A stretch of 21,032 nucleotides of DNA from a virus. A program made the position numbers and the translations under genes. This document shows, piece after piece, positions 3,248 to 11,725 of this stretch (position 1 is its first letter; every line of letters begins with the position of its first letter). The notes beneath the pieces were generated by a model, which saw only the letters and a program-made list of their open reading frames with translations, had not been told where the DNA came from and did no database searches. The stretch is from positions 11,653 through 32,684 of IMG/VR virus record IMGVR_UViG_3300030333_006866, one strand, 5' to 3'.

Positions 3248-3360
3248 GCTTTACTGTTCCTTCTACGATAACCAGACATTATGTGTTTATATATCCACCA
3301 ACATCTTCCATTATCTGATGACACTAAAGCTGCTTTTTTAAATCTATCTCTTCTTGACAA
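3244..3360 (-). CDS. possible tiny basic protein, 38 aa, TTG start
   Basis: From a TTG with AAGGAA about 10 nt upstream, this frame encodes SRRDRFKKAALVSSDNGRCW followed by WIYKHIMSGYRRRNSKA. It is strongly basic, with a WW pair, as in small nucleic-acid-binding proteins. The frame is open further upstream to 3411 (REFSFANIFIKEYRNL also looks protein-like), where it meets a TAA three codons after an ATG. The gene may therefore have lost its start by mutation or a sequence error. It is the last frame of the - strand operon and its stop overlaps the convergent + strand stop. Confidence 0.35.
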   Translation of the reverse strand: MSRRDRFKKAALVSSDNGRCWWIYKHIMSGYRRRNSKA

Positions 3361-3385
3361 GTTTCTATATTCCTTTATGAATATA

Positions 3386-3713
3386 TTAGCGAACGAGAAC
3401 TCCCTTAAACCTTAATAAGACATGTAAAAATAAAGGATGCGATTCATCCTTGTTGGAATAAAATTTACAACCTTTATCTACAATATTGCTAGGAATTTCT
3501 TTTTCTTCGACCTGCTTATGTGCTTTCCACCAATAGCAGAATCCAAATAAATAAGATTTCTTGTCTTTGCGATATACGCAATTCCAGCAAGATCTATTTT
3601 TTTCTTTTGCGATGTATTCTTGTTTGATGTTTAATAGCTTGTTGTTTTGTAAAATGTCTTTTTTTATCTGAAGTTATATATACAGACATTAATTCATGTG
3701 TTATTACTTTCAT
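3386..3713 (-). pseudogene. small cysteine-rich phage protein broken by a +1 frameshift
   Basis: An ATG at 3713 with a good AAGGAG starts MKVITHELMSVYITSDKKRH then FTKQQAIKHQ. In that frame it stops after about 40 codons, just past an A-run at 3597-3603. One frame over, the sequence continues as EYIAKEKNRSCWNCVYRKDK, then FGFCYWWKAHK, then NIVDKGCKFYSNKDESHPL, ending at 3386. The C-x2-C, F-C and G-C-K cysteines look like a metal-binding site. The span is 328 nt, one base more than 109 codons, so a single extra base explains the break. It probably lies between 3597 and 3665, perhaps in CAAACAAG near 3619-3629. It may be a real decay, an assembly error in an A-run, or a programmed shift. Confidence 0.6.
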
Positions 3714-3729
3714 TTGTTCTCCTTTTTAA

Positions 3730-3918
3730 TAAGGCGCAGCTACATATTATGCGTTTGACTAACCTAACTTAATAGCTGTTTTATTTATAGTTCCCATCTG
3801 AACACCGATGTCGTGTCAGTTTTTATACTGCAACTTGAAGCCAGTCACTACGCCTTAAAAATTTGAGGGAGCCCATAAACGAAGGTAAGTGCTATGGGTG
3901 TGAGAGGTGGACTCCCTC
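3730..3918 (-). ncRNA. structured noncoding RNA candidate N1 (two adjacent closed domains)
   Basis: This gene-free stretch holds two domains. Domain 1 has GAGGGAG (3865-3871) pairing with CTCCCTC (3912-3918) and CCCATA (3872-3877) pairing with TATGGG (3893-3898), stacked on one side. Domain 2 is closed by TAAGGCG (3730-3736) with CGCCTTA (3851-3857), encloses TGACT (3756-3760) with AGTCA (3843-3847), and contains a bulged hairpin at 3798-3819 (CTGAACAC with GTGTCAG). The closing helix ends next to the AAGGAG of the gene starting at 3713, so the fold could control that SD. The strand is inferred from the flanking genes. Domain 1 begins at the stop of the preceding gene and might instead act as a terminator. 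Confidence 0.55.
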
Positions 3919-7805: not shown

Positions 7806-7864
7806 TCTACCTCCTTCGTAGGGCTTTTAATTTATAAACTTTACGATAAAAATACTAGAAAAAA

Positions 7865-8300
7865 AGAAGATACTCTCGTGAAAATATTTACTCAATATTT
7901 ATCTTTCACACGTCTGCTACTTCTGATAAATAATTTCTTTATATCAGAGAGTATCTTCTCTTTATTAATGTAGTCAATGCAACTGTAACCCTTCGTCCAC
8001 GGGACTTGCCCATGAGGCTTCGGCTGGGCTTATTAAGGAAGCAGGTCCAACACGTTGCTTTTAGTTAGATGTCAGGATATCCACGCTACACTACTCCCTT
8101 TTAGCTTAGTTAATACAGCGCCATACAGGTTCTCTTAGAGTTCTGGTTTGTCCGACTCCGTGACTGACATGACTACATTAAATTTATACAAGCTTTTTTT
8201 TCGTTTAATAGTAGTGCTTTTGGGTTCTAGACATATTACTAATATTAACCAAAAGTTCCTGGAATAAACTTAGTGCAACTTCTCAGGACTGCTACTAAAC
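7865..8300 (-). ncRNA. large structured noncoding RNA candidate N2 (three adjacent domains, about 436 nt)
   Basis: The 514-nt gap between ERF and DUF6915 has no gene but holds three closed domains end to end. Domain A (8203-8300) is a three-way junction: GTTTAATAGTAG (8203-8214) with CTACTAAAC (8292-8300) encloses 8217-8226/8247-8255 and 8254-8261/8284-8290. Domain B (7965-8181) is closed by a perfect 12-bp helix (7965-7976 with 8170-8181). It encloses 7979-7986/8050-8058, hairpin 8008-8029, 8069-8075/8164-8170 and hairpin 8084-8093/8111-8120. Domain C (7865-7959) has a 13-bp closing helix and two inner hairpins. A U-rich tract follows on the - strand, so domain C may also terminate transcription. 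The 8084-8120 helix has three G-U pairs only on the - strand. Confidence 0.7.
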
Positions 8301-8319
8301 TAGTTGCATACTTGTAATT

Positions 8320-8670
8320 TTACATCAGATTCATTTTCTTTAAAGTATTCTTCTTGGTACTTGCCATCCAAGGTTTTGGTTTAATTTCTTTAAGCCAATC
8401 TTGAACTGTAGGAATAAAGCCTAGATCCTCTCTTATATGTTGTTCTGCTATAGAACGTACTGGTATTATTTTACCATCAGAGTTCTTTATTGTTATTCCA
8501 ATCTGTTCTTCACACATTTTAATACCTAATGTATGATGTCTTAAAGCACGATGTCTTATATCTCCATAATGATCTTTAGTTTGATCAAACCAATCATGTA
8601 TGTGCCAATAATCATCTTCTATACCACCAAATAGCTTTACACTTGATTTGCAATGATTAAATGACTTCAT
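8320..8670 (-). CDS. DUF6915-like protein, 116 aa
   Basis: The start overlaps the preceding stop (ATGA). The protein shows HIHDWFDQTKDHYGDIRHRA, then LRHHTLGIKMCEEQIGITI, then IIPVRSIAEQHIREDLGFIP followed by TVQDWLKEIKPKPWM. The order HDWxDxxK, HRALRHHxxGI, GxxIPVRxIAEQHxxEDLGxIPT, DWLxxIxPxPWM is how I remember the DUF6915 family of phage and mobile-element proteins, which has no assigned reaction. The conserved His and Asp residues could bind a metal ion, but a catalytic role is not established. It forms a coupled pair with the DUF6878-like gene upstream. Confidence 0.65.
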   Translation of the reverse strand: MKSFNHCKSSVKLFGGIEDDYWHIHDWFDQTKDHYGDIRHRALRHHTLGIKMCEEQIGITIKNSDGKIIPVRSIAEQHIREDLGFIPTVQDWLKEIKPKPWMASTKKNTLKKMNLM

Positions 8671-9224
8671 CTTTCTTGCAATTCCGAGTTAAAGGTTTGT
8701 TCTATTTTATTTCCTGACATATTATATGTAGTGGTTATTTCATTATATGATTGTACATTTTGCTGTCCTTCAATCTTTATAGTTCCTTTATTCAAGTCCC
8801 ATATTACTTCGCCTTGTCCACCTTCATTATTATACCAATCATAATCTATCATATCAGCTAATACATATTGCAAGTCATCATTACTAGTAAGAAGATCTTG
8901 ATAGTTTCTAGAGAATTCCTTAAATATTTTATGAACTTCTCTTTGATTCCTAGTCATATCTTTCCATTCATCAAAGTTTTCTTCTCTATTATGATTCCAA
9001 GCTATACTTTCGTATGTATTTGGATAGTATCCATTTTCATCTTTAGTTTCCAAGTCTATTTTACCTTTCCATCCTTCTGCATGAAAACATTCTCCACTAT
9101 CACCGCATCCTTCGTACCATACTCTAATATATTTGTAACCTTTTTCAAGGTATATTTTCGATAATATTTTCAATGCTTCTAATCTATTTTTAGTCTTTTT
9201 TTCATAAAGTTCATTGTAGTTCAT
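8667..9224 (-). CDS. DUF6878-like protein, 185 aa
   Basis: The ATG at 9224 has AGGAGG 6 nt upstream and overlaps the previous stop (ATGA); the longer frame to 9248 places the SD inside the gene and is rejected. The recognisable parts are YIRVWYEGCGDSGECFHAEG near residue 32-51 and DYDWYNNEGGQGEVIWDLNK near residue 126-145, the paired GDSG and NNEGGxGEV blocks that I associate with the DUF6878 family. No function is known to me. The gene sits with DUF6915-like and another unknown gene as an overlapping three-gene unit bracketed by the structured tracts N2 and N3. Confidence 0.6.
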   Translation of the reverse strand: MNYNELYEKKTKNRLEALKILSKIYLEKGYKYIRVWYEGCGDSGECFHAEGWKGKIDLETKDENGYYPNTYESIAWNHNREENFDEWKDMTRNQREVHKIFKEFSRNYQDLLTSNDDLQYVLADMIDYDWYNNEGGQGEVIWDLNKGTIKIEGQQNVQSYNEITTTYNMSGNKIEQTFNSELQER

Positions 9225-9655
9225 TTTATCCTCCTGATTAATTTCCAATCACCTTCTCTAACTATTTTTTGATATACTTTTTCTATTACAGTATATTCGT
9301 TTAGTTCACCATCTTCCCACAAATCTTCTTGTGGCACTTCTTCCCAATGATAAGATTGATCTTGCCAATTCATATCGTTAGATTTAAAGTGTTTTGACCT
9401 TACTGTACTTAACACAGTATTGAATAAATTGTTAATATATAATACTGCTTCATCTATATCTTTACATTCTTTGCTTTTCTTATGATCGTAAGCTTCATCA
9501 TTATCTTTAATCCAATGTTTATGTATATCTACATATATTGGATCATCTCCATCTAGATAGAACTCGTATTCTTTTCCATCGATAATCCCAACACCTGCTA
9601 TATTCTTATTTTTTAAATCATATATATTCAATCGTTTTAATGATCTTTTTTCCAA
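9221..9655 (-). CDS. hypothetical protein, 144 aa, TTG start
   Basis: The frame can be read from an ATG at 9736, but the segment 9680-9733 is an inverted repeat with perfect 10-bp arms and that ATG has no SD. The TTG at 9655 has AAAGGAG 6 nt upstream, so I start there. The protein begins EKRSLKRLNIYDLKNKNIAG, continues with VGIIDGKEYEFYLDGDDPIY and has an acidic, Trp-rich second half (NWQDQSYHWEEVPQEDLWED). The family is not recognised. The stop overlaps the DUF6878-like start. Confidence 0.55.
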   Translation of the reverse strand: MEKRSLKRLNIYDLKNKNIAGVGIIDGKEYEFYLDGDDPIYVDIHKHWIKDNDEAYDHKKSKECKDIDEAVLYINNLFNTVLSTVRSKHFKSNDMNWQDQSYHWEEVPQEDLWEDGELNEYTVIEKVYQKIVREGDWKLIRRIK

Positions 9656-9679
9656 TTTATCTCCTTTATTTAAATCTTT

Positions 9680-10114
9680 GAAGCAGTATCTGTTATTTAC
9701 AGAGCCAATAGTAGTGATCAGCCATACTGCTTCCATGCATATGTAGGTATAAGGATTGTTATCTAGTTGGCTACAGAGTGATCATCTGCCGATACCAATG
9801 CATATCATCCGTACCTCTTCATTCCTTTGTTTCAGAGTTGGACTAAGTTTATTAAATTTATGAGAGAGACCACGCTTAACTAGCACGCTAGATACGAATA
9901 CCTTGTGTTCTAGTATATTAACGAACGGTGGTTTTAGCCGTAACTCTCTCAATTGTATGAGAGCCTCACATATTCCTTTGCCTTACAAGTAAACAGGTTT
10001 TACATCTTACGAATACCATTCCTCTTGTCAAGGACTTATTTTCCCTGTAGATGACTGGCCAAATTGGAAATATGTCATCTTTACCATACAGGAGGACCAG
10101 TTATTGGCTCTCAT
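9680..10114 (-). ncRNA. large structured noncoding RNA candidate N3 (four adjacent domains, about 435 nt)
   Basis: The gap between the 10131 gene and the TTG at 9655 contains four closed domains in a row. They are 9957-9965 with 10106-10114 (ATGAGAGCC/GGCTCTCAT), 9861-9868 with 9944-9951 (TGAGAGAG/CTCTCTCA), 9735-9740 and 9746-9750 with 9792-9796 and 9798-9803, and 9680-9689 with 9724-9733 (GAAGCAGTAT/ATACTGCTTC). Inside the first, CCTGT and AGATGAC (10044-10055) pair with GTCATCT and ACAGG (10074-10092) over an inner CCAAATTGG hairpin. Nearly every base between 9680 and 10114 is inside a domain. The strand is inferred from the surrounding genes. No tRNA, riboswitch or intron core was recognised. 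Confidence 0.7.
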
Positions 10115-11547: not shown

Positions 11548-11580
11548 TATACTCTCCTTTTAAAATTCAAAAAAAAAGAA

Positions 11581-11699
11581 AAAGGTAAAAGTATAACCTA
11601 CTCGAATTACTGCAGTTAGACTTTCGATGACTAGTAGCTTACCATTTCGCTACTAAGTAGCTATATTGGGCTCCCTATCTTTATTATACTCTTACCTTT
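11581..11699 (-). ncRNA. structured element N4 with a 16-bp closing helix and U-rich 3' end
   Basis: The arms at 11581-11596 and 11684-11699 pair over 16 positions, with the single odd pair being G-U on the - strand. Inside are four copies of one hexamer or its complement: CCTACT 11597-11602, AGTAGC 11633-11638, GCTACT 11649-11654 and AGTAGC 11656-11661. These allow mutually exclusive hairpins, as in a switch or attenuator. On the - strand the closing helix runs into a T-rich tract, then into the SD of the 11547 gene. It could be a terminator with a regulated interior. The strand call rests on the G-U pair and the tail. Confidence 0.6.
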
Positions 11700-11725
11700 T
11701 ATTGATTTAGGGGTGTAATTAACCC

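Follow-up and report, generated by a model that had tools for sequence, protein, structure and literature searches.

Otherwise unrelated RNAs are known to exchange domains, as in viroids and with the IRES domains of RNA viruses, and the nesting of hairpin elements is a feature of bacterial REPs and of yeast mitochondrial GC clusters. Among the RNAs of phages and prophages, GOLLD (RF02032) and ROOL are large and ornate, and GOLLD forms RNA cages according to a published report (PMC12286853). As far as such accounts extend, the candidate RNAs described here, which we call E-a, E-b and E-c, resemble GOLLD and ROOL in being structured and noncoding, in lying near tRNAs and in combining a conserved with a variable region. 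They differ from them in size (~90–180 nt), and the window has no GOLLD match.

The window, the whole stretch of 21,032 nucleotides that was analysed, comprises bases 11653–32684 of a 32.7-kb uncultivated viral record. Its large terminase shows <60% identity to those of isolated phages (~25% for the best match listed), and its minus-strand early genes encode a DnaB-like helicase, an Erf-type annealing protein, DUF6915 and DUF6878. No open frame in the ORF list spans the tract at 9680–10114; one short minus-strand ORF within the gap (9782–9952, 56 aa, TTG start) covers a stretch occupied by E-b and the 5' part of E-c. ARAGORN made no tRNA or tmRNA call in the window, and Rfam 15 gave no match there at gathering score, GOLLD included; at E ≤10 or 2, the scattered sub-threshold matches all lay at least ~17 bits under the gathering scores. 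Neither the tract nor the E-a core had a DNA match in isolated phages, and in the literature, chiefly openly accessible papers, we recognised none that describes these elements.

Candidate RNAs of the 9680–10114 tract

The preliminary description had divided the tract into four adjacent domains, and a check of the sequence found their closing helices exactly where it had placed them:

9680–9733: closed by a 10-bp helix, GAAGCAGTAT/ATACTGCTTC
9735–9803: closed by a 6-bp helix, ATGCAT/ATGCAT
9861–9951: closed by an 8-bp helix
9957–10114: closed by a 9-bp helix

The 5-bp part of what had been given as a "6+5" helix is GGTAT/ATACC, which corresponds to columns 73–77/123–127 of alignment A3, is paired in 12 of 12 sequences there and has both-side changes at three of its five pairs. 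The nested CCTGT-AGATGAC/GTCATCT-ACAGG hairpin likewise exists (~10044–10092). What did not hold is the division of one 435-nt RNA into four domains: a further domain at 9806–9849 (GUCC..CUC/GAG..GGAU), recovered independently by RNAalifold in 12 relatives, had been overlooked, and comparison with relatives indicates that three independent putative minus-strand RNAs lie here in tandem. When the tract was compared by blastn with 12 loci of relatives obtained via the DUF6878 gene, its two halves were found apart, and E-a, E-b and E-c each recur separately in uncultivated marine phages. Three RNAs lacking an Rfam match are thus packed in one gap of ~475 nt, as follows:

9957–10114, minus strand: E-a, with P1 AUGAGAGCC/GGCUCUCAU, core loop AAUAACUGG/AAUAUGUGA, P2 UCCU/AGGA and a UAAGUCC..GGCA unit
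10044–10092, minus strand: optional arm of E-a, the nested CCTGT-AGATGAC hairpin, which holds module M5 (~10050–10086)
9983–10031, minus strand: terminal variable arm of E-a, in the slot between AAGUCC and GGCA, with contents that vary among relatives
9862–9950, minus strand: E-b, with P1 GAGAGAG/CUCUCUC, P2 CCAC (9928–9931)/GUGG (9870–9873) and a variable arm between
9675–9852, minus strand: E-c, with domain I (~9806–9849), domain II (9735–9803), domain III (9680–9733) and a conserved 3' CAAAGA
9221–9655, minus strand: gene after E-c, with the Shine-Dalgarno sequence AAAGGAG shortly past the E-c end and a TTG start at ~9655

By folding energy, the minus strand of the whole tract is unremarkable: z was −0.75, and 19 of 100 shuffles did as well, compared with z −2.0 on the plus strand (4 of 100). 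The elements folded separately gave z −2.38 for E-a (2 of 200 shuffles), −1.69 for E-b (11 of 200) and −0.54 for E-c (62 of 200). As the minus strand of the tract folds no better than its shuffles, the argument is a comparative one. Covariation was found in all three elements, each with compensatory helix changes above shuffled and slid controls, and the earlier view that structured RNAs lie on the early (minus) strand was supported. In sum, comparison shows E-a and E-b each closed by a P1 of its own, and for each putative RNA a conserved core whose helices covary.

E-a has one optional and one terminal variable arm, the optional hairpin preceding the terminal one, which is usually closed by GUAAGUCC..GGCA. 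Its core contains ~20 conserved non-helical letters and is almost invariant in 8 of the 12 DUF6878-relative loci, though at other sites. P1 is GAGAGCC/GGCUCUC, lengthened by a locus-specific A-U stem; the pair immediately outside it is A-T in 62 copies, T-A in 36, G-C in 3 and T-G in 1 (n = 102), and P1 can be wholly rewritten, for example to GGGGGC/GCCCCC in L240. Both-side changes occur at 10 of 12 P1 pairs across 33 distinct sequences, and the covariation score was 0.352 versus 0.119 for shuffled alignments and at most 0.109 for slid versions. The window's own copy scored 55.7 bits (E 1.5e-10) in a direct cmsearch. A pattern scan of viral contigs found E-a in at least 119 stretches, and at least 102 distinct copies with both core halves were obtained (131 loci). 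The loci of E-a, E-b and the modules were collected by patterns in which some letters are fixed, so that P1 variation is hidden and conservation inflated; alignment A2 was aligned to the model. Covariance models were also run on 45 whole records, which had been fetched largely by these motifs so that the fractions are not prevalences: E-a was present in 35 (26 of 28 plus 9 of 17; 0–2 copies per record, the window's own copy falling just short at E 0.016 and being counted as a miss), E-b in 12 and E-c in 13, 12 of these strong.

For E-b, 48 stretches with 42 distinct copies were found, the shortest of ~49 nt (L207). A pseudoknot, ACGG (9938–9941)/UCGU (9921–9924), of the general form ACGG/YCGU, is predicted to cross P2. 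Whole-structure covariation was 0.193 versus 0.103 for shuffles (pair counts, 34 sequences), and in the diverged copy L069 compensatory changes reach P1, P2 and the pseudoknot; the measure of further pair types was weakly above shuffles (30 of 500 as high).

In E-c, the 15 named pairs are formed in 97.8% of cases and eight have both-side changes (12 sequences); covariation was 0.367 versus 0.206 for shuffles, while further pair types were not above shuffles (460 of 500 as high). RNAalifold, unprompted, returned the same helices plus domain I. A same-strand DUF6878 relative lies downstream of E-c in 12 of 12 aligned loci, at a distance of ~54–4180 nt, while the gene adjacent to E-c varies. In the window, the gene after E-c has no Pfam match; the ORF list gives its start as an ATG at 9736 (gene 9221–9736), inside E-c, and the Shine-Dalgarno sequence favours the TTG at ~9655. 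The position of E-c shortly before this Shine-Dalgarno sequence, with similar spacing in L002, L003, L004, L008, L011 and L223, would suit a leader, or a regulator akin to a riboswitch, acting on the gene downstream. However, what follows E-c varies: terminator-like hairpins that carry a T-run in L009, L010 and L113, E-b in L061 and differing genes in other phages. E-c is thus not one gene's leader, and E-a lies before and after many unrelated genes. With different genes downstream in relatives for both E-a and E-c, we consider such a leader very improbable.

Variable arms and shared modules

The frames are conserved and their arms variable, and arms that are nearly identical appear in unrelated frames. 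Among arm segments of ≥30 nt, 58 of 114 had a match of ≥30 nt at ≥85% identity in a non-homologous neighbourhood, defined as one where no gene within 1.5 kb is homologous, compared with 26 of 1000 coding controls. This final control was based on protein homology of the neighbours; with the same kind of neighbours and matches of ≥22 nt, the counts were 71 of 124 modules versus 101 of 600 coding segments. A first control based on nucleotide flanks (39 of 126 modules versus 97 of 400 coding) was unfair to coding sequence and was replaced. E-a and E-b share modules in five pairs (92–97% identity, E ~1e-8 to 4e-32), and two modules of ~86 and 44 nt are common to them at 92% and 95%.

Module M1 (GCCUCANGGGCAAGUCCCNUGGAC) was found in 27 stretches: in E-a (L039, L231, L240, L241), in E-b (L176, L208), in the tract at 7865–8300 of the window, within terminator-like hairpins (L021, L095, L195) and elsewhere, making at least ten different frames by eye. 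M5 was found in nine viral stretches plus the window; 8 of its 10 placements, across eight contigs including the window, are in the optional E-a slot, and the others are in the terminal E-a slot (L227) and in another frame (L052). The flanks of M1 and M4 pair better with their own partner than when swapped (5.65 versus 4.69, reached in 19 of 2000 permutations, and 7.0 versus 4.5, reached in 2 of 2000, respectively), and in the same test own-partner pairing was not significant for M2, M3, M5 and M6, leaving two of six modules significant. We read a module as an internal loop plus hairpin that would be joined to its frame via a helix of arbitrary sequence. Letters that we take to resemble a tRNA T-arm (GGGTTCGAATCCC, GGGTTCGATTCC) also occur as modules, in an E-a arm of L044 (~1700–1800) and in L033 (~3623–3649); a tRNA origin of the piece in the L044 arm was rejected, ARAGORN finding no tRNA there.

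Among 129 distinct target places of modules, both neighbours are co-directional at 78, both opposite at 1 and mixed at 17, and 33 have one neighbour only (29 sense, 4 antisense); of the 79 places whose two flanking genes agree, 78 are sense. Taken together, the comparison shows wholesale replacement of arms in fixed slots by sense-oriented modules that unrelated frames carry as well. With one exception, the sources are metagenomic viral contigs, and chimeric assembly or chance could in principle create short shared stretches. Yet the same frame-module junctions are seen in contigs from different metagenomes (eight contigs, including the window, have M5 in one and the same E-a slot), the excess over coding controls is as given above, and E-a, E-b and E-c all covary; we find an artefact scarcely credible.

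The same modules bear on the other intergenic tracts of the window, and the feature concerned is:

7991–8020, minus strand: a copy of M1 within the 7865–8300 tract, 100% identical over 30 nt to the E-b arm of L176

This arm thereby recurs within E-a (L039) and E-b (L176, L208) of other phages. The preliminary description had taken the present tract and that at 7865–8300 as a set of related elements and not a one-off leader. A family-like set was indeed found, though with no structure common to the two tracts: blastn between them gave just an 18-nt opposite-strand match, and the covariance models of E-a, E-b and E-c, run on the window's record, matched nothing outside the present tract, 7865–8300 included (one match each for E-b and E-c; for E-a its own match and a weak one lying inside it). 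The 7865–8300 tract is composite, with parts that match relatives in rearranged order; within 7820–8320, pieces 1–140, 134–221, 221–291 and 329–356 occur in rearranged order in L002. The gap at 3248–3917 shares 43 nt at 95% (~3803–3845) with L228 and 28 nt with L201. Separately, ~103 nt of the gap at 11548–11725 are 85–87% identical to places in L123, L002 and L220, another conserved intergenic element. On these sequence matches, the tracts are related as a mosaic of shared putative hairpin modules and not by a common frame; as modules are shared where a frame is not, the set is real and is linked by its parts.

Tandem arrays also differ in order between phages: L061 has E-c, E-b and then parts of the 7865–8300 tract, and L063 has E-a, another frame, E-b and then part of that tract. 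A further frame, TATAAACCGAGG..TCGAGGAAAAAGTGTAGGTTTATA, with variable inserts of its own, was seen in L063 (9480–9579), L052, L062, L033 and L078.

Strand, gene setting and occupancy of sites

On the sense strand, closing pairs retain G-U over A-C by 36:0 in E-a and 11:1 in E-b, the long outer helix of the model-aligned set A2 has 21 G-U versus 5 A-C cells, and the free pair of M1 is U-G in 13 cases, A-U in 5, C-G in 2 and U-A in 2 (n = 22) and never C-A. Neighbouring genes are co-directional with E-a in 86 of 91 cases upstream and 80 of 93 downstream, and with M1 in 19 of 20 and 18 of 19, respectively. The G-U bias together with the co-directional neighbours points to a role as RNA.

E-a typically lies 6–30 nt past a stop codon and 17–45 nt ahead of a start. 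This placement, past a stop and ahead of the next Shine-Dalgarno sequence, the T-run that ends some E-a copies (L009, L010, L019) and the presence of M1 in terminator-like hairpins would fit cis-acting intercistronic elements, that is, sites between co-transcribed genes that serve RNA processing, stability or termination and have a nearly free terminal arm. At some sites, such as those three T-run copies, a plain terminator role would suffice; the window's E-a, as read from the sequence, is followed by atacaattg and no T-run. Against cis elements stand the tandem of three different RNAs within a single gap, the ~20 conserved core letters outside helices, the retention of E-c upstream of the DUF6878 gene over ~54–4180 nt while the adjacent gene changes, and the absence of E-a from many other gene junctions. 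Given the tandem arrays and the changing neighbours, cis action would not be the whole story, and we consider it a possible but doubtful account.

Orthologous junctions vary in what they hold. Before the gene whose protein starts with MKYTVRNH or MYGLP, E-a occurs in seven relatives with seven different arms (L021, L025, L028, L048, L084, L095, L127). After the helicase homologue, E-a occurs in L022 and L029, a GAAAGAGAU-GUAAGUCC..GGCA-UUCUCUUUC frame in L003 and L044, another frame in L052 and L078 and yet another in L076. Orthologous sites are empty in L061 and L046 (helicase junction) and in L062 and L063 (before the MIREFAFG gene); a count of 100 near-empty locus pairs is an upper bound, as some of these places hold an element (for example, L037).

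Empty sites in relatives are what a mobile element would leave, and selfish hairpins, short DNA palindromes that hop from one intergenic site to another, or into the loops of other such elements, and whose fold makes insertion harmless, would also explain the many sites, the nesting, the wholesale arm replacement and the lack of coding capacity. However, neither high copy number nor both orientations were found: records hold 0–2 copies of E-a and not many, and places are sense in 78 cases versus 1, whereas a DNA palindrome should go both ways. The retention of G-U and avoidance of A-C on one strand and the long conserved unpaired core also count against such hairpins, and in a non-systematic look no target-site duplication was recognised and no mobility gene could be tied to the elements. 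We therefore regard selfish hairpins as unlikely.

In cellular genomes, the pattern gave seven matches, about the number expected by our own estimate. A strong E-a (82.6 bits) lies in L167 (PCBP01000024.1), a contig of a Flavobacteriales MAG which is itself a phage, 97–99% identical to L058 (tblastx); its binning is a weak hint at a host. Two Streptococcus oralis loci (21.8 bits, E 0.0065, and 14.2 bits) were taken as chance.

Possible shuffling of RNA domains, and known systems

Our preferred reading, held with moderate confidence, is that the tract is a tandem of three independently folding elements that would be read together with the early minus-strand genes, act as RNA and evolve by domain shuffling. 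Counting against it are the ordinary folding energy of the whole tract and of E-c, the A-C cells in the A2 helix, the pattern-based collection of loci, the T-run at the end of some E-a copies and the four of six modules without significance in the flank-pairing test. Under the preferred reading, E-a, E-b and E-c would act as folded RNAs, with conserved internal loops that may form a functional platform for a phage or host protein or for another RNA and with arms that would be tolerated or selected extensions. Each unit would fold alone, and may be cut out at its closing stem, by analogy with phage tRNA or GOLLD clusters, and arms may be exchanged by recombination among co-infecting phages. An Erf-type annealing protein is encoded in the window, and nothing ties it to arm exchange.

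A bolder form, offered tentatively and in our view improbable, is a combinatorial RNA system in which a few core frames (E-a, E-b, E-c and others) would draw on a common pool of modules attached to arbitrary helices and reshuffled by a dedicated or RNA-level exchange. If this were true, RNA domain architecture would diversify as protein domains do, perhaps as a means of varying what the RNAs bind, or how they assemble, in the face of hosts or rival phages. More generally, the interchangeable hairpin parts suggest that RNAs, like proteins, can evolve by domain shuffling. They would offer a measurable case of this in a group of DNA phages that bears GOLLD, open the way to testing whether RNA domains swap naturally and keep their function, and supply short, well-delimited RNAs for structural and binding work.

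GOLLD itself is present in 8 of the 45 records of the phage group, five of them above gathering score, at these loci:

L033: 799–1219
L063: 6608–6999
L245 and L247–L251

Within ~3 kb after the GOLLD of L033 come a tRNA-Met, E-a and another frame. GOLLD was considered as a source of arms and rejected, as no E-a or E-b arms were present in the eight GOLLD loci fetched. Given that GOLLD forms cages and occurs in the same phage group, an assembly role for the smaller RNAs is worth testing. Like bacterial REPs and yeast mitochondrial GC clusters, the elements described here are small hairpin units at many intergenic sites; unlike these, they have few copies per genome, sense orientation and conserved unpaired cores. 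They also differ from the domain exchange of viroids and IRESs in concerning intergenic RNAs of DNA phages, with one module in at least ten frames by eye. Additional RNA families in phages are nothing new in kind; what is new is how extensively unrelated frames exchange arms.
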